A stretch of DNA of 64,000 nt, taken from positions 4,714,896-4,778,895 of the forward strand of contig OY282377.1 of NCBI GenBank assembly GCA_958295785.1, given 5' to 3'. Shown here in pieces: positions 12,020 through 55,018 of the stretch. The DNA is from an uncultured Latescibacterota bacterium (GTDB lineage Bacteria; Latescibacterota; UBA2968). A model generated the notes under the pieces. That model was not told the DNA's origin and ran no database searches. It saw only the letters and a list, made by a program, of their open reading frames with translations. Position 1 is the stretch's first letter; every line of letters starts with the position of its first letter. A program made the translations under genes and the position numbers.

Positions 12020-12031
12020 ATTGATTGAGCG

Positions 12032-13864: not shown

Positions 13865-13949
13865 GAGACGAGAAGCAACCACCGATGAACAGAGATGAAA
13901 AGCGAGATGCAAAGTGGTAAAAAGAGAAAAGTGAGATCGGAGTAAGCGA

Positions 13950-21672: not shown

Positions 21673-21739
21673 TGTTCCTGTTTGTCGATAAGCACGGCGA
21701 TTTGTGCAAAAATAAGCCACTCGTTTAGATATGGCAACA

Positions 21740-21796
21740 GATTTCATACCTATTTGCTTTCGCGTTGTCCGTATTCTGCATCCCACCAAGGATGAC
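21740..21796. repeat. Dispersed repeat family 2, copy B
   Basis: GTTGTCCGTATTCTGCATCC with flanks matches copy A near 9656. It lies just upstream of the SWIM gene. In the reverse frame it encodes a GCRIRTTRKQIG-type peptide, as does copy A, which can mislead gene callers into extending starts. Confidence 0.55.
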
Positions 21797-21872
21797 ATAA
21801 AAGGCATGTCATTAGGAATTGGAAATGCCCTACACCACCCCTTAGCGGCCCTAAAAATTAGTGAACGACCAT

Positions 21873-21972
21873 TTACCACCATGTTTCATGCCTACGTATT
21901 CCCGTAATTTCCCAAGTTTTCTCTATCATATTCTCAATACTTTCCCGGTATTTGGCTACTGTGGAATAAATA
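21873..21972 (-). pseudogene. Severed 3' end of the N6-adenine methylase gene
   Basis: Left of the IS630 element the minus strand reads YSTVAKYRESIENMIEKTWE and on to a TAA at 21873-21875. If the IS and one TA are removed, this segment continues the methylase at 23165-25087. The frame joins only if the A8 run near 23172-23179 is read as A7. The piece would be the natural C-terminus, a helix typical of the end of specificity-type domains. Confidence 0.6.
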
Positions 21973-22446: not shown

Positions 22447-23153
22447 AGCCCCACTTGAAGAAAACCTGGTGCATCAGCAAAGTGGATGCGTCCTTTCTCG
22501 CACGCATGGAAGCCTTGCTTTGGCTGTATGACCAACCTCATGATCCCAATGTTCCTGTGGTCTGCTTTGATGAACGTCCTTGTTTTCTCATCGGACAAGT
22601 CCTTGATCCCTTGCCCCTAACAACAGGCCAAGTGACCAAAGAACATTATGCCTATACCAAACACGGTTCGTGTGCTTTGTTGGCCGCCATTGAGCCTTTA
22701 ACCGGCAAACGGCTTGCCGAAATCTATCCCCGGCGCACGATGAAGGAAGACACCCACTTTTGTCAGGCCCTGACACAGCATTGGCCACAAGCGGAGAAAA
22801 TCCGCTTGGTGCAAGACAATCTCAACACGCATACCCGCCATGCCTTCTATCGTTACTTGCCGGCCGATGAGGCGTTTGCCCTCGCGCAGAAGTTTGAGTT
22901 CTTCTTTACCCCCAAGTCGGCGAGTTGGCTCAACATGATCGAGATCGAATTTTCGGCTCTGGCGCGAGGATGTTTGAATAGGCGCATTGCGACGCAGGCG
23001 GAACTACGCCGAGAAGTTTTGGCCTTCTTTCAGGAGCGGGAGGCCAAGGGCATCCCCTTGAATTGGCAGTTCACTTTGCCCAAGGCCAGAGACAAGATGA
23101 ATACCCATTATCAACGCGTTTATCCAGACAATTCAAAACTTAGGATAACTTAA
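22443..23153 (+). CDS. IS630 transposase, second frame (DDE catalytic part)
   Basis: 236 residues with the DDE triad in order: VVCFDERPCFL near residue 40, LVQDNLNTH near 118, and SASWLNMIEIEFSALARGCL near 155-165. It lies in the -1 frame relative to the first part and starts at a TTG with no ribosome site, consistent with expression as a fusion through the A8 slip. The reading frame is otherwise intact, so the element may still be active. It catalyses cut-and-paste movement into TA sites. Confidence 0.9.
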   Translation: MKPHLKKTWCISKVDASFLARMEALLWLYDQPHDPNVPVVCFDERPCFLIGQVLDPLPLTTGQVTKEHYAYTKHGSCALLAAIEPLTGKRLAEIYPRRTMKEDTHFCQALTQHWPQAEKIRLVQDNLNTHTRHAFYRYLPADEAFALAQKFEFFFTPKSASWLNMIEIEFSALARGCLNRRIATQAELRREVLAFFQEREAKGIPLNWQFTLPKARDKMNTHYQRVYPDNSKLRIT

Positions 23154-25087
23154 TTTACAGAGTAATAAAGTCTTTTTTTTGCTTCTGAATTGGATTTTGG
23201 AACGGGAATTTTTACTCTGGCTAAATCACGGGTTCGAATTCGATTGTGAGAAGCTGAGGTGCCAGAGGTAAGGCTTCTGATCTGGGCTTGAACGAGATCA
23301 ATAAGAAGGAGAAACGCCACCGAATAACTGTCCAGATCACCAGCGGGTTTCATGATTTCAAATTCTGTAGAGCACGTCAATGGAATACCGAAATTGGGCA
23401 CTACGAGAACTCTGGGAATTCTTGGGTTGATTTTCGAAAGTAAAATTTCACCCGGATAGCACCTAAGCCCCGGTGTTTTGGGCGAATAGTCAAGCATTGA
23501 ATTGACATCCAACATGCCTTCGCCGATTACGTGCAGAACGCTTATACATTTGCTTTCAGGGGGGCAAATATCTCGTTTTCTTTTTTTTGATAGAAATTCG
23601 ACCAAATCGCTCAACAGAACGGCGTGATAATCCTCGTGTTGCTCAATTGAAATGACAGACTGAAACCGCTCGGCACTATAATGGTTTGGCGTCCAAGTGG
23701 TGTTTATCACCTCCGAATAGTCAACGCGGAGGCATGAGGGTTTAGAACACAAAATGCGATACTGACCATTTTTATTTGGGTCGTCAATTTTATAGCACTG
23801 GGAAATGTCTTCTAAGTCATTCACTCCTTTTTTTATTTTGATAGGAACGCCTTTTTTTGAATTGACTTCGAAACCCAGTAATTCTGATTTTGCAATAAAA
23901 ATATCAGAAGGTTCAGCTTTGACTGGGTCTCGTTTGAGTATATGCAAGATCGCTGTTTTAGTACGCGTTCCCGCTTGGGCAAACGCAACACTTGGAAGTT
24001 CAATAATTGCCTTGACTATGGCTTTGTGTTTTAGCCTTTCCCTCAAGATTTGTGCTGTGCCTTTCGCAGAGATGACACTGTCAGGAACGATGATCAACAA
24101 ATGTCCCCCCTCTTTCAAAAAAGATAAAGACCTGTCAATAAATAGCAATTCAGAATCGACATTAGTACCAATACTTTGCCCTAGGTCATGTAAAAGAGGC
24201 AAGTTCTCTCTGCCAGTTTGGGCAATATCTCTATTTGAAAATTTGGCGTTGAATGGAGGATTGGAAAGTACGATATCAATTTTCCCGTTGAGTCTGTCTA
24301 AGAAAGAACCCGGAAGGATTGAATTTCCAATTGTGATATGATAATCAGCCGCATAAAAAAGAATCAAATTCATCTTGCACAGACGTACCATGCGATCAAC
24401 TTTATCCTGTCCATATAATTTAACATGGGTTGTACGTGAGCCTTTGGTTTTAGCGACTCGTTTGTAAAAAGCGGTCAGAAATGATCCCACTCCGCAGGCA
24501 GGGTCTAAGACACGCAATGTCTCTGGTAATCGTCCATTGTTTTCCCTTAAGATATATGACAAGGCGACCTCTACCATGAAATCGACGACCTCGGGAGGCG
24601 TCATATATTGAGCATCCTCAATGTTGCTTCGGAAGTTATCTCGGACAAAGTGTCCAAAGGCTTCATTGAGAATGTCAAAAGATTTATCACCTTCGGCATG
24701 TAGAAACGCATCTTCAAGTGAATGTCCAATCAGGGAAAGCAATTTTTGGGCAAACAAATTATCAGTTTCATGGAGTAAAAGTTGAGGATTTGTCCCAAAG
24801 ATCGATGAACCATCTTGGTTGCGATAGCAGGAGAGTTGTGCCGTTTCTTGGAATTTATTCTGCAAAATCTCAATAATACTGTTGCTGAATGGTTCCAAGC
24901 TGGTTTGAAAAAGGGATGGCGAGTTTGAAATGAGACCTCTTTTTTCAGCGACATAGATAGCGATGATTTTTACCACTTCATCGAGTTTTGCATTTGAGTC
25001 GTCAAATCGACCAGATTTGTGGAATTCTTCCCTTAATGAAGAGAGAGAACCATACAGTTTTTTATAGGTCTGCTCTAATACGGACAT
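23150..25087 (-). pseudogene. N6-adenine DNA methyltransferase (HsdM-like with specificity-type C-terminus), 3' end cut by IS630
   Basis: 645 residues as read. VLDPACGVGSFLT near residue 193 is the SAM-binding motif I, and LSNPPFNAKF near 275 the catalytic N-P-P-F. MTPPEVVDFMVEVAL before motif I is typical of type I modification subunits. After about residue 440 the protein turns to a target-recognition-like region ending TSASHNRIRTRDLARVKIPVPKS, so it may carry its own specificity half. The last residues (SVN and stop) come from the IS630 end. The A8 run before them also puts the original tail (21873-21972) out of frame by one base. It probably methylated host DNA for self-marking; whether the truncated protein works is unclear. 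Confidence 0.82.
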
Positions 25088-25181
25088 TTGGATCTCCTTG
25101 AGCTAATCAGTATAAAAATGGTAATTATTGATCTCTCAATCAACACGAATAACCATCATATTACAACCTATTTTCTACAAA

Positions 25182-25430
25182 ATGACACTTAACTGGCTGA
25201 CACGAGATGAAGATATACGCGCCGCTGCTCGCGTTCCCTATCGCTTGTTGGAAGAAGTGCTCGACTTTTCCACTGGCGACTTCGGTGCGGGCAATATGTT
25301 GATCCATGGCGACAATCTGGACGCGCTCAAGGCGTTGTTGCCGTTTTACGCCGGGCGCGTGATTCTCAAATCCTTTGACAAACAGGCCTGCCGGCCGCTA
25401 TTTTTCCCAAGCGAGCCGCAGACATTTTGA
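25182..25430 (+). pseudogene. N-terminal stub of a type III-like (Mod) DNA methyltransferase
   Basis: 82 residues beginning MTLNWLTRDEDIRAAARVPYRLLEEV and reaching NMLIHGDNLDALKALLPFYAGRV, the standard opening of site-specific adenine methyltransferases in which the DPPY motif should follow within 15 residues. Instead the sequence changes to ILKSFDKQACRPLFFPS and stops. The catalytic half has been lost, leaving a dead fragment in the defence region. Confidence 0.75.
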
Positions 25431-26104: not shown

Positions 26105-26133
26105 ATGACAGCTAAATTTTGGGAATTATATAC

Positions 26134-26161
26134 TTGACAACCTAAACTTTCTTGTTATATT
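26134..26161 (+). promoter_or_regulatory. Likely sigma70 promoter of the IS1595 transposase
   Basis: TTGACA at 26134-26139 and TATATT at 26156-26161 are 16 nt apart, about 30 nt before the transposase ATG. The -35 box lies inside the terminal inverted repeat, so transposase binding to its own end could repress transcription. Confidence 0.6.
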
Positions 26162-26190
26162 TATACAAGTTACGAATTAACAAGGGGGTT

Positions 26191-27132
26191 ATGATGGCAA
26201 AGCAGCTTAGTTTCGTCGCGTTCACACAGAAGTTTGCCACGCCTGAAGCGTGTATTTTGCACCTTGAAAAGATCCGCTTTAAGGATGGCGAGTCTTGTCC
26301 GCATTGTGGTAGTATGGGAAAAATCTATCGTCGTTCTGATTTGGCGTATAGGTGCTCGGATTGTGGGCGTAATTTTCATATGATTTACGGAACGATGTTT
26401 GGCAAGTCTAAAATCAAGATGTTGCCTAAATGGTTCGCGGCAATATGGATTGAAACGAACCACTCAAAAGGTATTTCAAGCGTTCAGTTGGCAAAAATGA
26501 TCGGTACAACGCAAAAGACCGCTTGGTTTATGCTTCAAAGAATACGAAACGCTTTTGGCAACAAAGACGATGATGATGATTTTCTGTCTGGTATCGTTGA
26601 AATTGATGAAACCTACATCGGTGGGAAAGAAAAGAACAAACATAGATCCAAAAAGTTGAATGCGGGTCGCGGAACAGTAGGTAAATCGGTTGCTTTCGGA
26701 ATGCGGGAAAAAGGGGAAGATGGTGAGGCAATGGCGGTTCATGTACAGGACGCAAAAGGGGCAACATGACACGAGAAGATGTTGAACCGGGTATTGACGG
26801 GCGCAACTATTCATGCAGACGAGAACAGCGCATACGGCGCATTGAGGGATGATTACGAAGTGGAACAAATCAATCATTCTGCCGACGAATATGAACGCGA
26901 TGGGGTCCATACAAACGCCATTGAGAGTTTGTGGGCCCTGGTTAAGCGTGTCTATATGGGTATTCATCACCACTGGTCAGACAAACACATGCAAAAGTAC
27001 CTGAATGCTTGCGTGTTTCGCATCAATCGAAAAAAGGTTGATACCTTAAGTCGGGTTGATGAGATGTTGAATATGGCGATGGGCGCACGGTTGACTTACA
27101 AGCAACTTGTAGCAAGTGAGGCGGTTGCATGA
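26191..27132 (+). pseudogene. IS1595 (ISXO2-like) transposase, interrupted by in-frame TGA
   Basis: The first part starts at ATG 26191 (AAGGGGG upstream). It has a zinc ribbon (CPHCGSMGKIYRRSDLAYRCSDCG), then a DNA-binding region and the first catalytic Asp in GIVEIDETYIGG. A TGA at 26767-26769 stops it after AKGAT. The same frame resumes with the second Asp (ATIHADENSAYG) and the N-x-x-E region (NAIESLWALVKRVYMGIHHHW). The stop removes two of three catalytic residues, so the protein is inactive unless the codon is read through. No recoding signal is evident. Confidence 0.85.
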
Positions 27133-27356
27133 ACAAACTTTATTCTGGCGATTGTATGACCATCATGCAACAGGAAATGAGGGCATCAAGCGTTGATCTT
27201 ATCTCCCTTGATCCTCCGTTCAATTCCAATAGGGCTTACCACGCGATTTACAAGGATGAAACAGGGCGACCACTTCCCGAGCAGGTTGAGGCGTTTTGTG
27301 ATAGGTGGACGCTTGACAGTGAACGGGAACGGGCGATCCGAAACAAGAAAATTTAG
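27129..27356 (+). pseudogene. Passenger DNA methyltransferase fragment inside IS1595
   Basis: 75 residues, MNKLYSGDCMTIMQQEMRASSVDLISLDPPFNSNRAYHAIY, reaching the catalytic D-P-P-F of an N4/N6 methyltransferase and stopping at the element's right end after RAIRNKKI. The SAM-binding half is missing. The start overlaps the transposase stop as ATGA, so it was built as a passenger gene and later truncated. Confidence 0.75.
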
Positions 27357-27499
27357 GTTGTCAAGTATATAATTCCCTAAATTTTCTTCCCCTTGTCTTA
27401 ACGCCATACCCCGCATGACGCGCCTACCTTTCTGCCCCAATAGGAGCAACACCACCGCGCAAGCCCGGCAACCGATTAAATCCAGCAAGAGAGTATGTC

Positions 27500-30400
27500 A
27501 TGAAAGTAACCCTCATCACCTGTGGACCTACCGCCAACGACAGCGAACGGAAGGCCATTGGACGAATTAAGGCTGGCTTGATTTCCACTCCGAGTGCAGG
27601 CGAGTGGCTGCTGTTGGCGAACCTCCTGTTTTCCTCTACCCATCGACGCCAATCAGACGAAATCGACATTGTCGCCATCGGCCCACCCGGGATTCGGGTC
27701 ATTGAGGTCAAACACTGGACCGCGGCTTGGGTGAAGCGCAACGCCGAACTCGTGGAACGCGAAGCTGACCGCGTAACGGCCAAGGCGCGCAAGGTAGGTA
27801 CCACATTGCGCCGGAAGGTTGCGAATCTCGACAGGGTGGATGGAGTGTTCTTGGTCACGCAGGACGCCTCAAAGGTCAAACCGCTTGAGGGCAGAGAAAT
27901 CCACGGCGTTCGATTCCACACCTTGAAAACATGGCAAGGTGCTTTGGCAGTGGATGCGCCCGCGTCCTTATCGCCCTCTCAGGTCGAGATGCTGGGCAAG
28001 GCTCTGTACCCGAAGGCCAGTGTGGCTATAGACGGTGCGCTGAGACGTTTGGCCGGCTATGTCAACCTGACGCTCCAGACGCCGGTGGACGAGCGGTTTC
28101 ATCGAAGGTACAAGGGTACGCATTCCACCCGTCGCGATCCCGTGCTCCTGCACCTCTATGACCTGTCGGCTACCGACCTGCCGAATCCGGAGGATAGGGC
28201 GCGGAGGGAATTTGACGCGCTCCGCCGGTTGCAACTTCACGCTTGGGCACCGCGCATTGTCGATTCATTTCAAGAAGCGCCGGGGTACGCTGGCGAGATG
28301 TGGTTCTTCACGGTCGCAGACCCGGCGGCTCCTAGCGTTAGGGATCGCGCCGACGACGATACGTGGGATGCGAAGGCGCGGCTAGCCTTCGCTCGGCGAG
28401 CAGTAGAAGTATTGATGGGGTTGCACGAAGCGGGTGAGGGCGAGGAGCCCATGCTGCACCGGAACCTCACGGCGGGCACGATTCTCGTCAGACATGACAA
28501 CACGCCGATCTTGACCGGTTTCCAGTACGCCCGGATTCCCGCAGACGTCACGGTGGCGGTCTCCGGCGGCACAGAGGACGAGTGGGACGACGCTGTTGCG
28601 CCCGAGGTTCGCCAGCAGGGTCTTAGGGCGGCGGATCGTCGGTCCGACGTGTACTCGTTGTGCACCAGTCTGTCCGTGCTATTTGTAGAACGAGACGATA
28701 ACGAGAGCTTGGCGGCTAGCATGGCACTGGACGAGGGTAGGGCGGACGATCCGGCGGAGCGAACTACGTTGGAAAAACTCCGCGACTCGTTGTCGGCCCG
28801 ACTGGGTGAACCGCCGGCAGTCGTCGCGCCACCGGCCCGATTCTGGACCGAAGATCAAGTTGTGAACTTCCGTGACCGGGATTACCGGATCGTTTCGCGT
28901 CTCGGTTCGGGAGGGGTCGGAACCACGTTTAAGGTGGTGCGGATCGATAGAGCGACCGGCGGGGATCTCGGTGCCTACGTCGCCAAGGTGGTCAGCGACG
29001 AAGAAACAGGCCGACGAGTCCTTCAGACATACAATCTGGCGCATTCGCACCTCGCTGATTCGGCCGCGCTTTCCACTATCTTCGAAACGGCAGAGGAGTG
29101 GCGCGACAACGACTTTGTTGCCTTGATGCAGTGGATTGAGGGCGAACCCTTGAACGAACTTGCCGGCGTCCTCCCGATTCTCGCCGAAGACTTCCACGAA
29201 GAGTCCGGGGAGGCCCTGGCGTTGCGTTGGCTGCAAACGGTTTGCGATGCGTTGGACGTTCTGCATCGCAATGGCTTGGTCCATGGCGACGTCAGCCCTC
29301 GCAACTTGATCGTTGCCAACGATGAGATCGTGTTGACGGACTACGACTGCGTAGCCAAGGTGGGAGATCTGGTCGCCGCTCCCGGCACCGTCCTATATAG
29401 CGCGGATATGCCTCTCAAAGACCGCTTGGCTGCGCCCGCGGACGACTTCTTCGCGTTGGCCGCGAGCTTCTTTCAGGTGCTTTTCGAGAAGGAGCCGTTT
29501 ATGTACGATGGCAACCGGGCCAAGGAACGCGGCTTGAATTGGGAGGGCGTTGAGCGCGCGGAGTACCCAACCGTCGCCGCATTCATGGACCAAGCGACGA
29601 ATCCCGACCGCGAGCAGCGATTTGCGTCTGCGACTGAAGCGAAGGCCGTTTTGAACCTCGGTTCCGAAAAAATAGATGAACCCGTTGACGAGGGAGATAG
29701 TCCGGAGTCAGAACCTCCCGCTCGCAGCGAAAACCAAGTCACTTGGCTTCAATTCCTGTTGCAATCCTACCCCGGTTCGCGCTGGGGCAATAGCGAAACG
29801 CGCGGCCTCGACACGGACTTTGCGGCGCAAACCTATGTTGAAACCCATCTCGAAGAGGCACTGTACCGCGATGTTCTAAGTCGAAAAATTCGGCTCGTCG
29901 TCTTGTGTGGCAATGCCGGGGACGGTAAGACCGCGTTGCTTCAGCATCTTGCCAGTCGCCTCGGGTTTGGCGACCGCGCTTCCTCAAATCGCATTCTCGA
30001 GAAGCAGATAACTAATGGCTTAACGGTGCGGATGAATCTTGATGGGTCGGCGTCATGGCAGGAACGTTCTGCCGATGAACTTTTGGATGACTTCTTGGCG
30101 CCGTTTCGTGAAGGCTCGCCAGACGAGGATATCGTCCATCTTCTGGCGATCAACGATGGTCGCCTCTTGGAGTGGATGGAACGCCATGATGAGAAAACTC
30201 CGCTAACGCAGGCACTCAATGGTGCCTTGATCGAGGGATCCACCCCCGAATCCCACATCCGCTTTATCGACCTCAACCAACGGTCGCTCGTCGGTCGCGT
30301 TATGCAGGGCGAAGCGCGAATTGAAACCGATTTTCTCGATAACCTGCTCAACAACCTCTATGGCGGAGAAAAAGCCCCCGAAATTTGGGCACCTTGCGAG

Positions 30401-31450
30401 ACGTGTTCGGCTCAAGATCGTTGCGAGGTTCGCCGCGCAACGCGCCTGTTTGGCCCCTCAGGGCTTCCCCGCATTGCAGATGAGCGTGATCGCGCTCGGC
30501 AACGGCTGTTCGAGATGTTGCAAGCTATTCATCTTCGCGGCGAAACCCATATCACCGTCCGCGAACTGCGGGCAGCACTGGTATATATCCTGTTCGGCGT
30601 TCACTTCTGCAGCGACTATCACGCAGGCGAGGACGCTCCGCCCTATTGGGACCGCGCCTTCTCGCCGGAATCGCCGGGGCGGCAAGGAGAAGTGTTGCTG
30701 GAACTAATTCGCTTTGACCCAGCCCTTGAAGCGCATCCGCATATTGATCGGAAGTTGCTGTATCAATACGAGAAGATGGGGTTGGAATCGGCGCGTCGGC
30801 GGGCCTATTTTGAATGGACCAAAGGCGACATCGCCGCGCTTACTGCTGATCCCCACGCCCTCGGCTTGGCCCGAGCGCAACATTATCAGCGGTTCCGAAG
30901 CCTCCCAATTGACAAGGACGCGCTTGACGATCTGTGCAGAAAGCTGTGCGAGGGAATCGCACGCTTGGAAAACTTGCCGCCCCGCGCATTTGATCGCCCC
31001 GGTGTGATCCCGCTACGCATCACGCCTCGCACCCCCACGGATACGGCGTTTTGGGTGGAGAAGCCACTGGCCAGCTTTCGGCTTAAAGCCGACCTGCCAG
31101 CCGAATCCGAGGGGATCGACCGCCTGCATCGCCAGGCCTTTCTGATTTATCGCTATCGGGATGGGCGTAAAGAGCGGCTCCGCCTCGGTGCCGATTTGTT
31201 TCACCTGCTAATGGAACTGAGCGACGGATACCAGTTGGGCGATGTCTCGACCGATGACACCTTTGCCCACTTGTCCATCTTCGTGCAACGACTGGTCCGA
31301 GAAGATGACCGCAAGGTGCTGGCTTGGAATCCCATGCAAGACGATGCGATCTACGAAGTCTCTGCGGAGATCGTCGCAGGTGTGGATTCAGACGGTCAGC
31401 AAAAAATGATCATTCAGCGACTGATGGAGGAAACGAAAAATGGCGAATAG
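27500..31450 (+). CDS. NERD nuclease-like / pseudokinase / Ser-Thr kinase / P-loop NTPase fusion (PglW- or MAD6-like)
   Basis: 1316 residues. Near 53-70, SDEIDIVAIGPPGIRVIEVKHW is a NERD (PD-(D/E)XK-like) core. Residues about 200-400 form a kinase-like lobe with HRN in place of HRD and TGF in place of DFG, so probably a pseudokinase. A second kinase has LGSGGVGTTFKV near 468, LVHGDVSPRNLIV near 595 and LTDYD near 614, which look catalytic. CGNAGDGKTALLQHL near 803 is a Walker A, and CETCSAQDRC near 965 may bind zinc. NERD plus kinase is the design of BREX PglW. The gene order kinase, ~600-aa protein, ~1650-aa ATPase recalls the methylation-associated defence system. It is probably a phage-sensing regulator. 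The next ATG overlaps its stop. Confidence 0.78.
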   Translation: MKVTLITCGPTANDSERKAIGRIKAGLISTPSAGEWLLLANLLFSSTHRRQSDEIDIVAIGPPGIRVIEVKHWTAAWVKRNAELVEREADRVTAKARKVGTTLRRKVANLDRVDGVFLVTQDASKVKPLEGREIHGVRFHTLKTWQGALAVDAPASLSPSQVEMLGKALYPKASVAIDGALRRLAGYVNLTLQTPVDERFHRRYKGTHSTRRDPVLLHLYDLSATDLPNPEDRARREFDALRRLQLHAWAPRIVDSFQEAPGYAGEMWFFTVADPAAPSVRDRADDDTWDAKARLAFARRAVEVLMGLHEAGEGEEPMLHRNLTAGTILVRHDNTPILTGFQYARIPADVTVAVSGGTEDEWDDAVAPEVRQQGLRAADRRSDVYSLCTSLSVLFVERDDNESLAASMALDEGRADDPAERTTLEKLRDSLSARLGEPPAVVAPPARFWTEDQVVNFRDRDYRIVSRLGSGGVGTTFKVVRIDRATGGDLGAYVAKVVSDEETGRRVLQTYNLAHSHLADSAALSTIFETAEEWRDNDFVALMQWIEGEPLNELAGVLPILAEDFHEESGEALALRWLQTVCDALDVLHRNGLVHGDVSPRNLIVANDEIVLTDYDCVAKVGDLVAAPGTVLYSADMPLKDRLAAPADDFFALAASFFQVLFEKEPFMYDGNRAKERGLNWEGVERAEYPTVAAFMDQATNPDREQRFASATEAKAVLNLGSEKIDEPVDEGDSPESEPPARSENQVTWLQFLLQSYPGSRWGNSETRGLDTDFAAQTYVETHLEEALYRDVLSRKIRLVVLCGNAGDGKTALLQHLASRLGFGDRASSNRILEKQITNGLTVRMNLDGSASWQERSADELLDDFLAPFREGSPDEDIVHLLAINDGRLLEWMERHDEKTPLTQALNGALIEGSTPESHIRFIDLNQRSLVGRVMQGEARIETDFLDNLLNNLYGGEKAPEIWAPCETCSAQDRCEVRRATRLFGPSGLPRIADERDRARQRLFEMLQAIHLRGETHITVRELRAALVYILFGVHFCSDYHAGEDAPPYWDRAFSPESPGRQGEVLLELIRFDPALEAHPHIDRKLLYQYEKMGLESARRRAYFEWTKGDIAALTADPHALGLARAQHYQRFRSLPIDKDALDDLCRKLCEGIARLENLPPRAFDRPGVIPLRITPRTPTDTAFWVEKPLASFRLKADLPAESEGIDRLHRQAFLIYRYRDGRKERLRLGADLFHLLMELSDGYQLGDVSTDDTFAHLSIFVQRLVREDDRKVLAWNPMQDDAIYEVSAEIVAGVDSDGQQKMIIQRLMEETKNGE

Positions 31451-33230
31451 TGCCCGTGCGTGCGTCAATGATGTTCTCGGCCGCAAAATGACCCGAGAAA
31501 TTTGGTCTGGCAATTACCATAAGGTATTGCCGATTTCGGTTTTGGTTTTCGAGATGTCAGCGGTTCTTCCCGCGGTCTTTTACATGTTCCGCTTCGGTCA
31601 GCGCAGAGGTGACGGAAATTTTCTAAAAACCTTTGGCGACAAAGTGGGGTCACCCAGCCAAAGAAGGCGATCTGCGAATATCGAGCGCGTTGTAGAGACC
31701 CTTTCCTACGCGGCGGGGTTGGACGGTTTTAAGGGCGAACCCGAGAAAGCCATCCTCGGCGACCTACTGCTCTGTTTCTGCCTTGAAAATATCAGGCACA
31801 CTTTGGGGCGCGACCAGCAAATCCAGCGGGTCGCGCCGGCCCATTACATGGCGAGTTGGATCGATCTGCCCCAAAAAATAGTGAATCTTCGCTTTGTTCC
31901 GGAAATGATCGTTGCGATGCTGGCCGATCAAAAGGGCGAGACCGTCGAGCCGAGCGGGGAAAAAAAGCAAACCTATTTCCCTGTGGGAAAAAAATACGAA
32001 GAGAACATTTTGTTGGACGCATTCAGCCAAGGCGTTGTGCGCCGCGGAGAGGTCATAAGCGATCTCACCTCGGATCGGTTCAATGAGGCAGATGACTCGG
32101 TAGGGCTGGACCAACTGTTGATGATCCGACTCGCGCAACAACTTGAAGCGGCACCGGACAAGATGCGCGGCAAAGAAGCAGGCCCAATTTCCAATCAACG
32201 CCCCATCGCCAAGCGAGCAGCAGAGGATTTTTCCGAAGACATTCGCCGCTTCACACGCGCTTATGCGGCCCCGGTGCCGCGCTACGCTCTGGTAGATATG
32301 ATGGAGTCCTGTATTGCCATCGGTTTGACGACCATTCTTACCAGTACGATAGAGTTGTTATTTCAATGGTCCGATACGGGTGTGGTTCCAGAGCCAAAAG
32401 AACAAGAACCCGCTCCCTTGTTTGTAGATTGCTCAAATGGGGTTGAGCTTAGCATGCGGAACGTAGCCGAGCAGTCCATGGATGACGCCATGCGGCGCAT
32501 GGAGCGGTTTCCCGTCATTTTGATGGTACTGCGGTTGCTGGATTATCACGCGCGGGACAACAGGGAAATCAAGAGACAGAATATTCCAACTCGACCCTAT
32601 GCCACGGCTTGGCTGAATCTGTTGGGGGATTTGCTTCACGACCGCCATGAACAAGCGCAACGAATCCGATTCGGAATCGAAGACCATGCCGACAAGCTGG
32701 CCGAAGAACTGGCGGGCGATTACCCCGAGGCCGCGGAGATTTTCGACAATGCGGATAACAACCATCCGGTCTGGCGGCTCGCCAAGGGATTGATGTTGCT
32801 CATGGGGACGAACTTTCGCAACTATCTTACAGGGATGATCGACTCGAGTTTGCTCACCGGGCGTCCAAATGGGTTGGCGGCAAAAAGGACAACGAAGCGT
32901 GGCCTCGGTGGGCGTGCGCGCCCTGTCCGTTCCCTCGTGTTCACCGATTCGGTGCTGGACTATCTGGTGCATCTCCACTTATTGCGACCGGGCAATAAAC
33001 AGGGCGTTCGCCTCCTTTCGTTCAAAGATTTTGTCGATACCCTGTGTGACCGCTATGGATTCCATGTGGATACCGCGCCGCCGGGGATGACGATCTCCAA
33101 CGAATTGTTGCAAAAGAATCGCGTGATCTTGGAACGGCGCCTGCGCGATCTAGGGCTTTTGGTGGGCGTCAACGATGCAGAAGCCATGAAGCGGCTACAA
33201 CCGCGTTTTGATCCTGATGGAGGAAATTGA
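31440..33230 (+). CDS. Uncharacterised 596-aa defence operon protein (MAD7-like position)
   Basis: 596 residues; ATG 31440 overlaps the kinase stop and has GGAGG 10 nt upstream. The protein is mostly helical with no catalytic motif I can name. The C-terminal 100 residues (VLDYLVHLHLLRPGNKQGVRLLSFKDFVDTLCDRYGFHV, then ERRLRDLGLLVGVNDAEAMKRL) look like a winged-helix pair of the kind seen at the end of ATPase partners. It lies between a PglW-like kinase and a giant ATPase with no spacing, so it is probably an obligate component of the same complex. Its assignment to the MADS middle protein rests on size and order only. Confidence 0.65.
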   Translation: MANSARACVNDVLGRKMTREIWSGNYHKVLPISVLVFEMSAVLPAVFYMFRFGQRRGDGNFLKTFGDKVGSPSQRRRSANIERVVETLSYAAGLDGFKGEPEKAILGDLLLCFCLENIRHTLGRDQQIQRVAPAHYMASWIDLPQKIVNLRFVPEMIVAMLADQKGETVEPSGEKKQTYFPVGKKYEENILLDAFSQGVVRRGEVISDLTSDRFNEADDSVGLDQLLMIRLAQQLEAAPDKMRGKEAGPISNQRPIAKRAAEDFSEDIRRFTRAYAAPVPRYALVDMMESCIAIGLTTILTSTIELLFQWSDTGVVPEPKEQEPAPLFVDCSNGVELSMRNVAEQSMDDAMRRMERFPVILMVLRLLDYHARDNREIKRQNIPTRPYATAWLNLLGDLLHDRHEQAQRIRFGIEDHADKLAEELAGDYPEAAEIFDNADNNHPVWRLAKGLMLLMGTNFRNYLTGMIDSSLLTGRPNGLAAKRTTKRGLGGRARPVRSLVFTDSVLDYLVHLHLLRPGNKQGVRLLSFKDFVDTLCDRYGFHVDTAPPGMTISNELLQKNRVILERRLRDLGLLVGVNDAEAMKRLQPRFDPDGGN

Positions 33231-33231
33231 T

Positions 33232-36200
33232 ATGGAGTGGACCAAATTGCATGGACGAGTACTTGGGCATGCGTTTTCAAAAGTGCTGGGCCGAGCCGAA
33301 TCCGGGGCAATGGCCTTTGTCCGTTGCCTGACTTCGGATGGGGTAAAAATGCTCGCCGAAGACGCCGCGTTTGACGTGCGCGATTGGCGGGTCTGTCGCG
33401 TTGCAGACAAGTCCGAGGCGCGAACCATTACCGCGGACCAAGCCGTCGAGATGCGCGAGGCCAAAGGCGATGCCACCCTGTTGCTGGTGGACACCGATCT
33501 CGCTGGCGCAGGCATGGATGGCATCTACAGTGCCTCGCGGGAAGTGGATGAGACAAGCCTGTTCAAGGAAGCGCGCCGGCTGTCCGCCGCCGAGGTGACG
33601 CGCCAATTGTCGCGCCCGCACCGCCAATATGCCGAGCGGGCCATCAAAAAAGCCGAAGGATTCGGCGGTCAGTACAGCGTTTCGCCTTGGGCGGCGTTCG
33701 ATTTCCTGTGTCGCGTTGCAACGCACAAACAGCACCCCGGCGCGTATCTTTATCTGCTCGGTCTGTGGCCGGTCGCGGAATCCGAGGACTTGGACAGCGA
33801 GAAAGCGTTGGACTTATCGCGCCTTTTCGTGGATCACTTGCTGGGAACGGGTGCTTTGGGTCAGACTATCCCGGCGCGCATTGAATTGTTGCGACTGGCT
33901 AAACCAACGGATGATCAACGCCGCGATCTCGAAAATTTCCTCCACACTGCGGAAACCCAGCCGCTTCTGCCCGCATTGGAAAAACTCGTCGATAAGAAAC
34001 ACCTGTGGGTGGGGCCATTAAAGAGAGAGAATGCCCATGCCATCGAGTCCATAGAATTCACATCTTGGCGCAACCGGAACGGCACGCTCGCCAAGTGGTC
34101 GGGATTGGTCGAACAGGCTCATGGCGAACACGAACCGCCCGCGCTCATTTTGAGGCCCGACGCCGAGACATCGGCTGACTATTCGACATTGGAGATCAAA
34201 TGGAAGGCGCGGCCCGGCAACTTGAAAAAAAACGCCGTGGAGTACCGAGTTGCAGTACTGACAGACATGGATGAAGCACTCGCCGAGCGCAACGTGGGCC
34301 ACTCGGCGAAAAAGGAGGAGAAGTGCCGGTTCAGCAATGACGACTTTTCGTTGCTCAACGAAGACGCCTTGGTCTCTGCCAAGGTGGTGGTTTCCGCGGT
34401 CGGCAACGACGATGTCGAACTTCAAGAGAGCGAGGAGTTTATCATTCGCTTTGGCGAACCACCCGAAAAAACCGTGGGAGGGACTGGCAAAAAGGTGCGG
34501 GCGTTTAGCGAGGGATTGGTTGAACTCAGTGACCGAGAAAGCGTCTCGACTATCGCCGACAAGCCGACGGGTTTCAGCGTTGATGAAAAGAACAACTCGG
34601 TGTTGTTACGCACATCCGAAGGTGCAAAACGGTTGAGTTTTAGCGTGTCCTGCCCACCGCTGATCCGCGAAGTGGAAAAGCAATGGCTGGGCCGAGCCGG
34701 CGCGCCAGGGCGTTGGCGCGTCAAAGTGCGGGCGTCTGGTGTACGTGCGGGAGAGGTGGAGTTCATTCGCCCTGAGAATGCAGCGGGGGCGATGTGGAAT
34801 CGCGCCACCGTGGCGAGCCGAAAATTGGCCGACTACTTCAACAAGGGCGGCGGTGTGGTCGGCTATGTCTATGACGATAAGGCAAGGGCGTTTGATTCTG
34901 TCAAAGAGTACATCAACGCTTGGACGCGATTACTGGAAAACGGCGATCCATCCATAGCCCTGTGCAACACCGTTGAGGTGCAATCCCTTTCAGGGCAGAT
35001 GATCGGCTTAATCGTCCTGCCGATGCACCCGTTGCGCGTCGCATGGCATGCGGCTTATGACAACCTCGTTCTTCACGCGACCTTTGAGCAGGGTCAAAAG
35101 GCGAAAACCATAAGGGATGAACTTCAGTGCTTGGACGGCGCCATGTTTCCCGCCTTTCTCCCGAATCTGGAGGGCGGATCGTTTGTCTTTACGGACACTC
35201 TCGGCTTTCATGCGGTCGGCATGGTCCCCGACACGGACAAAGAACCCAAGGCTACCTTGGCGATTATCGCACGCGCCCTGGTGGCAGGCGAGTCAATGGA
35301 CGCCGCCCCAACAGTAGGGGAACAAAGCGCGAAGGTCGTCGGTGACGAGATCGTCAAGTACTTGGATTGCCACAACACGTCCCGCCTGCTTCACGTTCAC
35401 GCACTTCGGGCGGGAGATGGCCTGACTATCGCCAGGTCGTTGGGCCATGTCCACGGCCGCCTGAGCAAGGCCGATGACGAAGATATTTCGGAGGAGGAAT
35501 CTCGGGGCGCGTCCGTCTTCTCGCTGGAGATGTATCCCTCAAAGGAGCAACGCGGCATTGCAGGCCGGTTCATTGTCGAAGCGCGCGAACGGCGGCGCAG
35601 TGGCGCCGGCGGGGTGTCACCCGACGACCAGTGGATGCTCGAATCCCTAAGTCTGCCCGGCGGGATGAACATGCCCCGGTTGCGCTGGGCACGCAAGGAG
35701 GAGTCTAATCCGAAGACCGCAGCCCACGTTGCCGTCGCATTTGACACGTTCAAGTCGCAGGTCGTATCGAAGGAACATGACCTATTGGGCGATGAGCCGT
35801 TCCAAGCGTTTGGCCTGCTCTCCTTCTATGATCGCCACTTCACCACGAAGCCCGCGCCTATGTGGCACAGCGCGGTACCTCTATCAAAGGATGGCGAAAA
35901 GCACCCGTCGGAGCGCGTGCATACAGACCGCTTGGCGCGTTTGCAACATGCCATACAGGACACTGTGGCGCGCCATATCGGCGCGGGGAATGGACAGTTG
36001 CCAGTGCTACAAACAGAGGTCTCATCGAAAAAGGCGGACAACCTCAAGAATCTCCACCTGCTTTGTGATTGGGTTATTACGCTGGACAGAAACGCCGGCA
36101 TCGAGTACTTCGATTCTCCTCGGGACAATAGAGAAATTTACGATGCTTACGTGATTGATTGCGTTCCCGAACGAGAGGATCTGGGCTGTTTGCAACTCAT

Positions 36201-38163
36201 CACTTCTACCAGTAACTTGGATGAGGTGCGCGTGCCGCTCGATGTTGCCTTAAATCAGATGGGGCTAAGCCGCAGTCGCAAGAATGCCGAGTTCCTACTC
36301 GAGCATTTGAAGGCCCTCAGCGGCCGGCTCGCCATTCGCCTCACAGGAGACAAACCGCCGATAGCGGAATTGATCGCGCTCGCCGTTTCGCAGGCAAATT
36401 GCCGGCAGGCGCCGGAGACGGATCCATGCTGGGTATCGCTGGAGCGCGGTTTCATTGTTCCCGTAAATGACGTTCGGGATCTCTTGCCACCGTTGACAGC
36501 CAAGGATGGCGAGAAGAAGGCAGTGAGACCCGATCTGATTTATGTCACCACAGCACCGCGAAAAGGATTGATACTCCGCTTCGTGGAGGTCGCGTACCGT
36601 CGCGATCTACGCACTGCGAGATCCCCGGACATTTTGCACCGCATTCAGGCACAGACCGCTGAAATGTGCAAGCATTGGAACGATAGGTATTCGCATGAAA
36701 AGTGCTCTGCGTTTAGAGCAGTGCGGCGTGCCAAACTGGCCCGCATCCTGCGCTTTTATGCGGATAAAGCACACAGGCACCATTTACCCGCGGCACGGCA
36801 TGGTGAACTCGTGACTGAGATTGACCGCATGATCGAAAAGGGCGACTACGCGCTTGACGCAGACGAAAGCGAATCTCTCGGATGGGTATTTTGTCCCGAG
36901 TATGCAGGGATGAGTCCGTTGAAAATTTCTCCCGGCAATTGGAGCACACAGGTGTTCATGTTCGGTCCCAGCCTTTTGCCCGATTTGGACTTTCGCGGTG
37001 AAATGACCACCAGCCCCCCTGAATCGGAGGCTCGGCCGTCGTCTGAAGAGAGGACGCGGAATCACAGGCCGAGCGGATGGACGGACATGCCACAAACATC
37101 TGGTGACACCGTGCCCTCGATCTGTTTTGGGACAGACGCCTATACAAATGCAAAAGTCCGATGGCCGCTGACCGTAAAGGGCAATCCCCATCTTCTGATC
37201 GCGGGATTGCCCGGAATGGGCAAGACCACTTGCCTGCTCAATATTTGCAAGCAGATGATGACCGCTCGTATTCGACCCATCGTCTTTTCCTACCATCAGG
37301 ACATCGACGAACAACTCGAGCACTTGGTCGACTCGGTTCGGTTCGTGGATTTCGATGGGCTGGATTTCAATCCGCTAGAGGTGGTCAATCGGGAATCGCG
37401 GATGGCGCATCTCGACGTGGCGGGCGCGATGCGAGACATTTTCGCGGCGATCTATTCGGAACTCGGCGACATTCAAACCGAACTTATCCGCGGGGCCATC
37501 AAGGAGAGCTTTGTTGAGGTGGGGTGGGGAGAGGCCAACGCGGCCATCTCGGATCTTCAGGAGCCTGCGTTCAGCCGATTTGTCGAAATTTTGCGTGCCA
37601 AACCGAAACCGGACCGAGGCTTGCACTCCTTGCTCGCACGCTTGGAAGAACTCGAAGACTACGGATTCTTCACCTTGCGCGAGTCGCGTAGCAGTTTATG
37701 GGAAAGTGAGTGTCCGACCATCATCCGCATTCACACGACGCAGAATGGCAACCTCCAGCGGGCTTTTGCGTCTTTGGTGTTCTATAGCCTCTACAAGGAT
37801 ATGTTCCGGCGGGGTATCCGAGATCGAATCACGCACGCCTTGATATTCGACGAAGCGCATCGTGCCGCGGGTCTCAAACTCATTCCCACTATGGCAAAGG
37901 AATGCCGGAAGTACGGGATTTCGCTGGTGCTCGCCTCGCAAGAAGCGCGGGACTTCGACGTCTCGGTGTTTTCGGCGATAGCGAATTACTTGGTTTTGCG
38001 ATTGACCGAGGTGGATGCGAAGTCCCTCGTCCGAAATGTGGCGAGCTCACAACAAGAACGAGTATTGATCGATAAAATCAAGCAAATGGAACGGTTCAAG
38101 GCGATGTATTTTTGCGAAGAAAGAAAAACCCCCTCTGCGGTCACTTTATCGTCATCCCTGTGA
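33232..38163 (+). CDS. Giant HerA/FtsK-like ATPase of the defence operon (MAD8-like)
   Basis: 1643 residues from ATG 33232 (GGAGG 8 nt upstream, one base after the previous stop); an in-frame TTG at 33208 is rejected. Residues 1-1250 are of unknown fold. The C-terminal 350 residues are a P-loop motor: LLIAGLPGMGKTTCLLNI near 1320 (Walker A), DVAGAMRDIFAAIYSELG near 1400, THALIFDEAHRAAG near 1535 (Walker B) and ISLVLASQEARDFDVSVF near 1562 (sensor). This order is that of HerA/DUF87 translocases, which move DNA or drive nucleases in defence systems. It ends the three-gene operon and is followed by a hairpin terminator. Assignment to MADS is moderate; to an anti-phage module, stronger. Confidence 0.75.
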   Translation: MEWTKLHGRVLGHAFSKVLGRAESGAMAFVRCLTSDGVKMLAEDAAFDVRDWRVCRVADKSEARTITADQAVEMREAKGDATLLLVDTDLAGAGMDGIYSASREVDETSLFKEARRLSAAEVTRQLSRPHRQYAERAIKKAEGFGGQYSVSPWAAFDFLCRVATHKQHPGAYLYLLGLWPVAESEDLDSEKALDLSRLFVDHLLGTGALGQTIPARIELLRLAKPTDDQRRDLENFLHTAETQPLLPALEKLVDKKHLWVGPLKRENAHAIESIEFTSWRNRNGTLAKWSGLVEQAHGEHEPPALILRPDAETSADYSTLEIKWKARPGNLKKNAVEYRVAVLTDMDEALAERNVGHSAKKEEKCRFSNDDFSLLNEDALVSAKVVVSAVGNDDVELQESEEFIIRFGEPPEKTVGGTGKKVRAFSEGLVELSDRESVSTIADKPTGFSVDEKNNSVLLRTSEGAKRLSFSVSCPPLIREVEKQWLGRAGAPGRWRVKVRASGVRAGEVEFIRPENAAGAMWNRATVASRKLADYFNKGGGVVGYVYDDKARAFDSVKEYINAWTRLLENGDPSIALCNTVEVQSLSGQMIGLIVLPMHPLRVAWHAAYDNLVLHATFEQGQKAKTIRDELQCLDGAMFPAFLPNLEGGSFVFTDTLGFHAVGMVPDTDKEPKATLAIIARALVAGESMDAAPTVGEQSAKVVGDEIVKYLDCHNTSRLLHVHALRAGDGLTIARSLGHVHGRLSKADDEDISEEESRGASVFSLEMYPSKEQRGIAGRFIVEARERRRSGAGGVSPDDQWMLESLSLPGGMNMPRLRWARKEESNPKTAAHVAVAFDTFKSQVVSKEHDLLGDEPFQAFGLLSFYDRHFTTKPAPMWHSAVPLSKDGEKHPSERVHTDRLARLQHAIQDTVARHIGAGNGQLPVLQTEVSSKKADNLKNLHLLCDWVITLDRNAGIEYFDSPRDNREIYDAYVIDCVPEREDLGCLQLITSTSNLDEVRVPLDVALNQMGLSRSRKNAEFLLEHLKALSGRLAIRLTGDKPPIAELIALAVSQANCRQAPETDPCWVSLERGFIVPVNDVRDLLPPLTAKDGEKKAVRPDLIYVTTAPRKGLILRFVEVAYRRDLRTARSPDILHRIQAQTAEMCKHWNDRYSHEKCSAFRAVRRAKLARILRFYADKAHRHHLPAARHGELVTEIDRMIEKGDYALDADESESLGWVFCPEYAGMSPLKISPGNWSTQVFMFGPSLLPDLDFRGEMTTSPPESEARPSSEERTRNHRPSGWTDMPQTSGDTVPSICFGTDAYTNAKVRWPLTVKGNPHLLIAGLPGMGKTTCLLNICKQMMTARIRPIVFSYHQDIDEQLEHLVDSVRFVDFDGLDFNPLEVVNRESRMAHLDVAGAMRDIFAAIYSELGDIQTELIRGAIKESFVEVGWGEANAAISDLQEPAFSRFVEILRAKPKPDRGLHSLLARLEELEDYGFFTLRESRSSLWESECPTIIRIHTTQNGNLQRAFASLVFYSLYKDMFRRGIRDRITHALIFDEAHRAAGLKLIPTMAKECRKYGISLVLASQEARDFDVSVFSAIANYLVLRLTEVDAKSLVRNVASSQQERVLIDKIKQMERFKAMYFCEERKTPSAVTLSSSL

Positions 38164-41299: not shown

Positions 41300-42442
41300 T
41301 TAATCCTCCCACTGCAAGGTGCCGGCACTTTGATAATCCGTCACGCGCGTCTCAAAGAAGTTCTTTTCCTTTGCCATGTCAATGGTTTCGCTCATCCACG
41401 GAAAGGGATTTTTTGATCCGTATACCGCTTGCAGCCCGATCCGTTCCAACCGGCGGTCGGCAATAAATTGCACGTATTCGCGGAACAGCCCTTCATTGAG
41501 ACCCAACACCCCGTCGGGCAAACAATCCCTCGCATAAAGCACTTCGTATTCCACGGCTTCCTGGATCAGGTCGTAGATGTCTTGTTGCAAATCCGGTGTC
41601 CAAATTTCTGGGTTCTCCAGTTTAATGGTGTTGATCAAGTCAATCCCAAAATTCAGGTGAATGGTCTCGTCGCGCAAAATGTACTGGAACTGCTCCCCGA
41701 TGCCCGTCATTCGGTTTTGCCGATGGAAGGAGAGGATCATCACAAAGCCACTGTAAAAGAAAATGCCTTCCATAATCACGTAAAAACCCACCAAATTTTT
41801 CACAAATTTTTTCATGCCCTCCGCGCTTTGCGTTGAAAAATTGGGTGCCAACACATCTTCGGTCAGTGCCATGACGAATTTGTCTTTGCCTTCAATGGAC
41901 GCCACTTCGTGATACATATTAAATACTTCGCGCCCGTCGAGGCCCAGGGATTCGACAATGTAGTGAAAGGTGTGCGTGTGAATGGCCTCTTCAAAAGCCT
42001 GACGCAACAAATATTGCCGCGCTTCCGAGTTTGTGATGTGCTTAAAAATCGCCAACACAATGTTGTTGCCGACCAAGCTCTCGCCCGTGCTGAAGAATCC
42101 CAGATTGCGCAAAATCACCTGCCGCTCGGCCTCATTGAGTCCATGGGGGTTTTTCCAGAGTTCAATGTCGCGTTGCATCGGCACTTCCGTGGGCATCCAG
42201 TGATTGGCGCATCCATTCAGGTAGTGCTCCCATGCCCACTCGTATTTCAGGGGCATCAGTTGGTTCACATCCACTTGCCGGCAATTGAGCAAACGCTTGT
42301 CCTCTGGATCGATGCGCTTGCCCAAATTGTATGACTCGCCATTGGCCCCGCAACACAGGGCGGACGAAATCTCATTCGCGGACGAATGGTCGTTGCCGTT
42401 GTGTTGCACATGATTCTCAACGTCTTCAAATACCAGCGGCAT
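41300..42442 (-). CDS. nrdB: Class I ribonucleotide reductase, small subunit, probable class Ic (Mn/Fe)
   Basis: 380 residues from ATG 42442, with AAAGGAG 6 nt upstream. It is the ferritin-like radical subunit that works with NrdA to make deoxyribonucleotides. [12 protein letters not shown] near 118 gives Glu where class Ia has Asp84; [14 protein letters not shown] near 148 has the E-x-x-H ligands and Phe at the place of the radical Tyr122; [14 protein letters not shown] near 263 supplies the last E-x-x-H. Glu plus Phe at these sites is the mark of class Ic enzymes such as that of Chlamydia, which use a Mn(IV)/Fe(III) centre instead of a tyrosyl radical. The first 436 bp (42029-42464, including the leader) are duplicated at 44765-45200. 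nrdA lies 9.5 kb upstream. Confidence 0.93.
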
Positions 42443-42464
42443 AAACAACTCCTTTCAGATCAAA
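42029..42464 (-). repeat. D2 repeat, copy in functional nrdB (leader plus first ~138 codons)
   Basis: 436 bp nearly identical to 44765-45200. I saw two base changes in the portions compared (for example GCGCAAAA against GCGTAAAA). It runs from GTTTGTGATGTG to TTTCAGATCAAA, just past the ribosome site. Confidence 0.93.
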
Positions 42465-42477
42465 TCAAACGCATGGG

Positions 42478-43089
42478 TCAGGCCGTTGCCTCAATGATGG
42501 CTTCGCGGAATTTTACAAAGCTATGCGAACGGTTGCGACTGGGATCGACATGCGTGCCAACAACACGGGCCGCTTCCACTTTGCGTAGCCCTGTTTTGAA
42601 ATAGCCGTGCCGCTTTAGGATGCGTTCGAAAGTTTCCCATGTACCGCCGCGAACCGCATCGGGATTGCGTGCTTGATTTGGGATCTTTTGAGACACTCTC
42701 GGATAGGCACTGCGTACTGCCTGCCAGTCGCCGAAGTACCATGCCTCCAATTCCTCAATAACGACGCGGTTGACCAATTGCCAAGGACGACAGAGAGACT
42801 GCGAACGGGTGAGTAGCCCGGCAACGGAAGCAATGGCCTCGAGGTTCTGTTTCAGAGAGAAGCAGTTCTCTCCATCGCGGTCAATGAGCACGATGATGCG
42901 ACATTCGTCAGTTATCCACCGTGCATAAGCACGCAACCGGCCCTCCAAGTTATGGAGGAGGGCGTGCTTACCTTGGAAGGTATGGATGCTGAATGTGCGG
43001 TCCTTTGGCAACAAGCGTGGAAGCACCGCTTGTAGAAAAGCCTCCATCGATTCCTCCTCGACCAGTATTTCCAAGTGATACGCGGTCAT
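42478..43089 (-). CDS. TOPRIM-like DUF4276 family protein, partner of AAA ATPase 1
   Basis: 203 residues. [22 protein letters not shown] at the start (the Glu of the TOPRIM fold), [13 protein letters not shown] near 64 (D-x-D) and [13 protein letters not shown] near 110 are the DUF4276 pattern. Its ATG overlaps the ATPase stop by 4 nt. ATPase plus TOPRIM pairs include PARIS, OLD/Gabija-like and RloAB systems, where the TOPRIM protein is a nuclease effector. It lies directly upstream of nrdB. Confidence 0.72.
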
Positions 43090-44330
43090 CGCTCGCGCCC
43101 CTCAAATGACCGGGATGGCCCACCGTGTTTGACCAGCGGATCGCCCACACGAAATTGTCCCTCCATCCACAGATAGCCGAGAGACGCGCCCTCGTCCACA
43201 AATTCCGGTACGCCGGGTATATCTGCGACACGGCTCGTTTGCGTGTGTCCCGCCTCGTCGCGCCAGAGGACGCGCACCTCTTCGGACCGCAGTGCATTAA
43301 GAAAAAAAGGGGAATGCGTGGTCGCCAACAACTGCGCGCGCTCGCAGGCCGCCCGGCACTCCTCGGCCAATTCTGGGAGTAGCCGAGGATGCAGGAAATT
43401 CTCCGGTTCCTCAATGCCGATGAAGGACGGAGGTTCGGGATCGTACAGTAGGGTTAAATAGGCGAGCATTTTCAACGTGCCATCCGAGGCAAATCGCGCC
43501 AGCACCGGATTGTCGAATGGCGCGTCCTTTATTTGCAACAGCAGCCGGCCGCCGGGCATGATTTCGGCCAACACGCGCTCGACACGCGGCACCCGTTGAC
43601 GCAGTGCCTCAAAGATGTGGTTAAGCCGGTCGGGATATTGCTCGGTCAAGTGTTGGATCACGTTGGCGAGGTTGTCCCCCGTCATATTTAGCCGCTCGTG
43701 AGGTCCTACCTCGGGTTGCCCTCGTGTGCTGTCTGCCGAAAGGTACGACACATGCCATCCTGTGATGAAGTCGCGCAATGCTGCCACGCGCGGGTGATCG
43801 GCAAACTGTCCAAGTGCATTGACTGCCAATAGGTCGGGTGATTTGAGCGGCACCTCAATGCGCGTGTCCAACTCGTCGGGTTGCTCACCGCTGACCGCTC
43901 GACCATGTCCTTCGCGGTATTCGAGGAATCGGAAGGGCTTACCATAACGCTTACGTCGCCAGTGCAACCACTCCGTCCTGACAACGGGCCGGTGCTGAAC
44001 TTCGTCAATGGCAAGGTGATAGGTGATCAAAGGCGTGTCCGGTTGCTCACGGTATTTGAGTTCAATGACAATGGGCCCTGTGCTGCCGCGAGTACGCAGT
44101 TCTTTGGCACGTCCACGTCGATCCCAAGCTCGGCGCAACCCCGATTCGAAGCATTCGGACAGGAACGCGAAGACATCGAACACTGTGGATTTGCCGCTGC
44201 CATTGGGACCAAGGAGCACCGTCATTGGCGTTAGGTGCTTGAACTCAATCTCCATCAAAGCGCGGAAGTTCCGCACCTTCAAGTATTCAATGCGCGCCGA
44301 AGGACGGGGTTGTGAGGTGGGTGAACCCAT
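43086..44330 (-). CDS. AAA15/ABC-type ATPase 1, defence-associated
   Basis: 414 residues from ATG 44330. [34 protein letters not shown] is the N-terminus and Walker A (near 39), [18 protein letters not shown] the signature helix near 280, [13 protein letters not shown] the Walker B near 301, and [10 protein letters not shown] the switch His. This is the RecF/SMC-like ATPase seen in OLD, RloA and PARIS AriA. It probably senses phage factors and licenses the coupled TOPRIM protein. It replaced a different ATPase gene: just upstream (44359-44396) remain the first 13 codons of the other allele ([13 protein letters not shown]), which belong to the duplicated D1 block. Confidence 0.82.
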
Positions 44331-44358
44331 AGCTTTTTCGCTGGACTTTTGGCTTTCA

Positions 44359-44764
44359 GATGCTCTTGAAGCCCTTGATGGTGATGTCGTCAAACATTGG
44401 GAGAATTTGGCTTTTTGTAAATGGTGATTCCGAAGGTGTCTATGTGCTGCTTGAGCGGGATGGACGCGATGTTTTCGTAGGCTTGCAGGTCGCATTTTTG
44501 CGGGATGGGTATGTCCTCTAAGTCGAAGGCGAGCATGCCGAGGCGGTGTTCGTTCGCAATGCCCTTGGTGGCTAAGTCAATGTCCGAATGCGCGGTTGCC
44601 TTGCCCGTGGCGCGAGACCCGAAGAGCTTGACTTCTGCCAATTCGGGATATGCGGCAAAAACCCGGGTGAACTTTTCTATGGTTTCAGCGGGCAATTCAG
44701 GGGCGTTCATGGTGACGGTACCTCGGGTAGCAAGTTCTCGTAGAGCGCGTCCAAAATGTTCAAA
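44359..44764 (-). repeat. D1 repeat, copy 1 (nucleotidyltransferase block)
   Basis: 406 bp nearly identical to 46918-47323. It covers the MNT-type nucleotidyltransferase gene, its short upstream region and the first 13 codons of the AAA2-type gene. A visible difference is Ser against Phe in the KKPN-S/F-PNV tail. Confidence 0.93.
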
Positions 44765-54908: not shown

Positions 54909-55018
54909 GTATCCCTCCCTCGCCAATATGTATGATAGTTTTGCATATTTAATCCACATATTGGTGAGGAGTAGTAACCGGGCGAGTAGTAACGCGGAAA
55001 GTACTGATAAGACATCAT
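54881..55018 (-). CDS. Candidate Tyr-rich leader peptide overlapping the nrdA start
   Basis: 45 residues from ATG 55018, preceded by AAAAGGAGGAGAAAC, the best ribosome site of the region. [20 protein letters not shown] and on, with 9 Tyr. It ends 28 nt inside nrdA in another frame. It could couple translation to nrdA or act as a regulatory leader. No relatives are known to me, so it may also be a chance frame. Confidence 0.4.

Follow-up and report, generated by a model that had tools for sequence, protein, structure and literature searches.

Which system is encoded by three tandem genes, joining a NERD nuclease-like domain, protein kinases and a HerA-type motor, in a 64,000-nucleotide stretch (the window) of an uncultured Latescibacterota genome? 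An earlier note, made from the letters of the sequence, had seen in them a likeness to MAD6-MAD7-MAD8 of the methylation-associated defence system (MADS) and to PglW of BREX type 2, and had proposed a reduced or new variant. The three frames, here called F, G and H, lie uninterrupted on the plus strand, with F and G overlapping by 11 bases; they are the overlapping or abutting, linked genes of 1316, 596 and 1643 residues described at the outset, the last length being counted from ATG 33232. This ATG is favoured over TTG 33208 as the start of H because relatives begin at the matching residue (alignment consensus MxWTxLH). A scan covering one genome per species recovered 31 related loci, spread over about 13 phyla; within the reach of the contigs, all 31 have F, G and H in this order. 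The trio is therefore no chance arrangement, and the co-occurrence that was to be surveyed is conserved. We conclude that the locus is a DndFGH-type restriction trio in the broad sense, and neither a reduced MADS nor a BREX system. Adjacent F, G and H genes, a derived P-loop with canonical Walker A and ND motif in F, a DndG fold and a HerA motor are all found; an active PD-(D/E)XK endonuclease (REase), a further feature of such trios, is predicted to be missing from the window copy but belongs to the family itself.

Table 1. Features of the trio and of the neighbouring methylase, in window coordinates
Feature	Position	Strand	Basis or detail
N6 methylase, best as HsdM	23150-25087	-	N6_Mtase 118.6 bits
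Gene F, 1316 aa: NERD, pseudokinase, Ser/Thr kinase, DndF/SspF-type P-loop core	27500..31450	+	
NERD nuclease-like domain	27587..27742	+	Pfam NERD residues 30-81, 32.5 bits
Pseudokinase, aa ~195-440, approximate borders	28082..28819	+	HRD replaced by HRN, DFG by TGF
Second kinase, aa ~457-720	28868..29659	+	Pfam Pkinase 57.8 bits
DndF/SspF-type P-loop NTPase	29759..30757	+	Walker A GNAGDGKT, ND motif AINDGR, CETCSAQDRC cysteine insert
Gene G, 596 aa: DndG/MAD7-type DNA-binding subunit	31440..33230	+	AF2 fold match and MAD7 profile
Gene H, 1643 aa from ATG (1651 from TTG 33208): DndH/MAD8-type subunit	33232..38163	+	
PD-(D/E)XK endonuclease segment of H	36433..36807	+	RPDLIYV...RFVEVAYR
H codon 1129 (numbered from TTG 33208)	36592..36594	+	GCG (Ala), vs Lys in almost all relatives
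HerA/FtsK-like motor of H, DptH type	37096..38124	+	Walker A GLPGMGKT, DEAH Walker B, ASQ sensor

Pfam matches and alignment motifs bear out the expected order of gene F, in which NERD is followed by a degenerate kinase, an active-type kinase and a P-loop. In the alignment of relatives, the NERD motif D-(E)ID...(E/D)VK is intact in every copy that reaches the region, with D...EVKH kept, and the second kinase retains its catalytic residues (K496, HGDVSPRN and DYD). From residue 779 onwards, F matches SspF (58.5 bits) and DptF (E 4e-5) in a profile search, and hhalign aligns it with DptF at E 3e-5. According to Rakesh, Aravind and Krishnan (2024, PMC10853773), the ND motif and the cysteine insert are DndF features; both recur in F. 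The same paper describes systems whose DndF core is preceded by a fused NERD domain and a tandem inactive-active kinase pair, a fusion restated in PMC12839542, and the architecture of F is thus of a basic kind already published. Those NERD/tandem-kinase DndFGH systems share with the trio the domain order of F, the three-subunit operon, stand-alone occurrence and the HerA motor in H. They differ in that the F architecture is treated there as one of several N-terminal fusions, and the main text is without this clade, its distribution, its kinship with MADS or a dead REase. Added here to the published fusion are a distinct clade, the limits of the nearest copy, the absence of writers, the MADS kinship and a lysine-to-alanine change in H (K1129A).

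Gene G matched nothing in a Pfam search and gave no sequence match in a profile search of the PDB; its relative was found by fold alone. Foldseek comparison of the AF2 model (pLDDT 87.6, pTM 0.90) with the PDB yielded DndG 7exx as sole significant match (E 9e-6, probability 1.0, TM 0.41/0.52), so that the structure comparison proposed for the 596-residue protein identified a DndG fold. Viral contigs scanned with G held no relative. At the C-terminal end of H, the predicted HerA-type motor was recovered both as DndH (86 bits) and, in a PDB search, with DptH 7es4 as best solved relative (E 9e-13). BLAST matches stopping near residue 1263 had raised the suspicion of a HerA swap inside the family; because every copy keeps the same motor, the swap was rejected and the break is attributed to a variable linker. 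The N-terminal ~1290 residues of H have no direct profile match to DndH and are linked to it only via MAD8: for the SF2-like, beta-sandwich, TRD and inactive-methylase domains of DndH, the DndH profile matches the middle of MAD8 (residues 891-1077) at 1e-5. Residues 590-1300 of H gave a poor AF2 model (63.6), and a Foldseek search with this low-confidence model returned no match. Within the nuclease segment, the RPDL...VEVK pattern or an equivalent aligns across Dpt, cytosine-methylase-linked trios, MADS and the trio family.

Profile searches against MADS models, as the earlier note had advised, matched MAD6 and MAD7 below their cut-offs. Homology extends over most of the length of all three proteins: F aligns with MAD6 (1375 aa) over F 2-1291 at E 8e-114, G with MAD7 (555 aa) over G 21-594 at E 1e-35, and H with MAD8 (1802 aa) over H 19-1210 at E 2e-28, the last alignment ending before the motor. 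The gene order is shared, MAD8 has a PD-(D/E)XK motif, and MAD7 matches SspG at 9e-10. Because MAD6-7-8 are homologous to F, G and H, MADS seems, on these alignments, to contain the same F-G-H engine as the trio. No open paper stating a MADS-DndFGH link was found, and the primary MADS paper lay outside the search, so that priority is uncertain. A 2026 review (PMC12904381) leaves blank how MADS attacks phage; the homology predicts that MAD6-8 would be a translocating nuclease of the DndFGH type.

Kinship is, however, not membership. MADS adds methylase and specificity genes, and the motor of the trio matches DptH best. At the curated cut-offs, which MAD2, MAD5, MAD6, MAD7 and MAD8 pass in L054/L055, the source of the MAD6-8 proteins aligned above, the window trio reaches 136 of 410 bits for MAD7 and 153 of 460 for MAD6. 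In each of the 32 genomes the trio G proteins stay far below the MAD7 cut-off of 410, at about 76-172 bits, and three of these genomes (G199, G200 and G219) carry a true MAD7 of 615-623 bits beside the trio. The trio clade, F-G-H throughout, is distinct from MAD7, from which a long branch with 100/100 support separates it. A decayed MADS that lost MAD1-5 and retained MAD6-8 with a broken methylase is therefore very improbable, even though MAD6-8 are the nearest named relatives and the adjacent methylase bears a distant likeness to MAD2 (78 bits with mad2) and is similar to a Piscinibacter MAD2. That methylase scores better as HsdM; the nearest copy of the trio has no methylase; no true MAD2 exceeds the cut-off in the host genome (best 308 of 720 bits); no MAD1, MAD3, MAD4 or MAD5 operon lies among the flanking genes beside the trio, and the trios examined here are nowhere linked to MAD1-5. 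The supposition of a reduced or new variant thus stands for the distinct clade and falls for the reduction, since the trio is not decayed, and the broader MADS-like hunch, including the likeness to MAD6-MAD7-MAD8, stands as homology over nearly the full length, with gene order preserved, and fails as membership. The lack of further genes, which had seemed unusual, is the rule in this family. Trio loci are easily missed because NCBIfam and PADLOC models score them weakly or below cut-off. Separately, the PADLOC mad7 profile gives a genuine DptG (L075:6798-8114) 241.7 bits, so that what is called mad7 may in fact be a DndG.

The resemblance to BREX is confined to one half of F. PglW likewise joins NERD, pseudokinase and kinase, an arrangement common to PglW, MAD6 and some DndFs, but its C-terminal half is a triple wHTH with iSTAND, whereas that of F is DndF-like. 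F has no PglW match in NCBIfam, and neither PglX, PglZ nor other BREX genes occur among the flanking genes scanned beside the trio; BREX was rejected on these grounds, the likeness noted earlier surviving for the NERD-kinase half. With DptFGH/DndFGH and SspFGH the trio shares the DndG fold, the DptH motor and the DndF/SspF P-loop. It differs from them in the NERD and kinase domains of F and in a host without a DndC- or SspD-like enzyme: the host genome has no TIGR03183 match for DndC and no SspD-like enzyme, and its sole PF01507 (PAPS-reductase-type) protein is CysH (258 bits). A phosphorothioate system, which would need such a writer, was likewise rejected.

Related loci include two Rhizobium plasmids, the Rhizobium phaseoli plasmid copy being an example of an intact trio, and a few copies are frame-broken, L041 for example. 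No recurring neighbour gene was found, any one Pfam family being present in at most 4 of 91 neighbours; individual copies lie amid genes of other known defence systems. The nearest copy, in a genome of another Latescibacterota family (G046), is similar at the DNA level from 27500 to 38117, the similarity stopping at the three genes; its flanks are metabolic genes, with no methylase there. Identity along 27500-38163 to one relative (L011) is mosaic, with blocks of 79-84% among blocks of 97-99%, a pattern pointing to recombination among cassettes from different families. The trio appears to travel between distant bacteria without the DNA-marking genes on which such machines ordinarily depend. 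Self DNA might nonetheless be marked by an unlinked or interchangeable host methylase, as may be imagined from FGH-like trios in Sinorhizobium and Pseudoalteromonas that adjoin a cytosine methylase. Two methylases lie just downstream of one Rhizobium trio copy and the host encodes many N6 methylases, but no methylase family is common to the neighbours, and we regard such marking as unlikely, if less so than a decayed MADS. As a further variation, otherwise normal trios at L014:8100-11806 and L039:1385-4989 have a tandem second G.

The REase motif of H is intact in most of the trio family and in MADS. In the window copy, codon 1129 differs by two base changes from the AAG of G046, and the Caldilineaceae copy (L014) has lost the E as well as the K of the REase. 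The AF2 model puts residue 1129 in a beta hairpin with a helix after it; local pLDDT is 84-88, although the segment as a whole is poor. Judging by the motif, K1129A has probably left the H nuclease of the window copy dead, unless a displaced residue may serve in catalysis. The NERD, second-kinase, P-loop and HerA motifs are intact, however, and against G046 the trio evolves under purifying selection (dN/dS 0.21-0.36), strongest in the H motor (0.05-0.14), so that H is no plain pseudogene. Loss of the lysine might have ended self-damage and left a disarmed remnant with no present function; the similar loss in L014 and the toxicity of unmarked DndFGH-type engines (PMC8092258, PMC11662687) would fit, but three open frames, the intact motifs and the selection on the motor make this a doubtful account.

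The reading we favour, and consider probable, is that F, G and H form one DndFGH-type complex that is kinase-gated and restricts invading DNA with no enzyme devoted to self-marking. G would bind DNA, H would track along it by its HerA motor and position the nuclease, and F would be the nucleotide-binding regulatory subunit, bringing a putative NERD nuclease of its own and the pseudokinase-kinase pair, with the kinase gating the complex. DndFGH translocates and nicks DNA and harms unmarked cells, its ATPase being repressed when self DNA carries phosphorothioate (PMC11662687); DndFGH and SspFGH damage cells that lack the mark (PMC8092258). In vitro, phosphorylation by a kinase of phage origin inhibits nicking by DndFGH, although in phage the kinase alone is insufficient (PMC12345140). 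Because complexes of this type are toxic to unmarked cells and inhibited by phosphorylation, and because the trio lacks a writer but has a kinase built into F, the analogy with the phage kinase, which acts from outside, suggests that the F kinase gates the complex. For a stand-alone trio with no writer, it has to be asked how a DndFGH-type complex leaves its own host unharmed; the fused kinase is a possible answer. PMC10853773 proposes instead that kinase and NERD are backup suicidal effectors. Since the H nuclease is probably dead in the window copy, NERD would be the source of any DNA damage there; alternatively, the motor would block the invader by itself. More speculatively, and with the odds against it, Dnd, Ssp, MADS and the stand-alone clade might all use one F-G-H engine with varied self-recognition modules, the kinase serving as restraint in the stand-alone form in place of DNA modification, and the F NERD domain being able to take over cutting from the H REase, as the window copy hints.

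Upstream of the trio, the opposite-strand methylase that the earlier note called broken exists; its stop codon falls just where an IS630 transposase ORF ends, which makes truncation plausible. As it is not a conserved neighbour, it was rejected as a partner of the trio. A short fragment at 25145-25380 resembles the start of another DNA methylase and is similar to L036:1533-3074. An IS1595-family element at 26121-27377 has inverted ends that match by eye, a transposase split in two frames (26152-26769 and 26779-27132) and a passenger fragment at about 27130-27356 that reads like the start of a DNA methyltransferase. Elsewhere, FGH-like trios adjoin a DNA cytosine methylase at L077:2602-13456 and L078:3964-14372, in L077 also Vsr; F and G of L077 match no PADLOC model at E 1e-4.

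The region around the HEC-01-like genes, 4-9 kb downstream of the trio, is a defence island. It comprises a HEC-01-like pair at 42478-44495 (AAA_21 ATPase and DUF4276) and a second HEC-01A-like ATPase at 45934-46956, which sit between ribonucleotide reductase small and large subunit genes (41300-42448 and 51912-54959) that share a strand and are separated by about 9.5 kb. On the other side, 19729-21882 encodes a 717-residue SWIM zinc-finger protein that matches the candidate defence family PDC-S62 and the start of DpdE, and in a strongly skewed region at 10073-15902 a TPR membrane protein is flanked by two DUF6785/DUF6784 paralogues.
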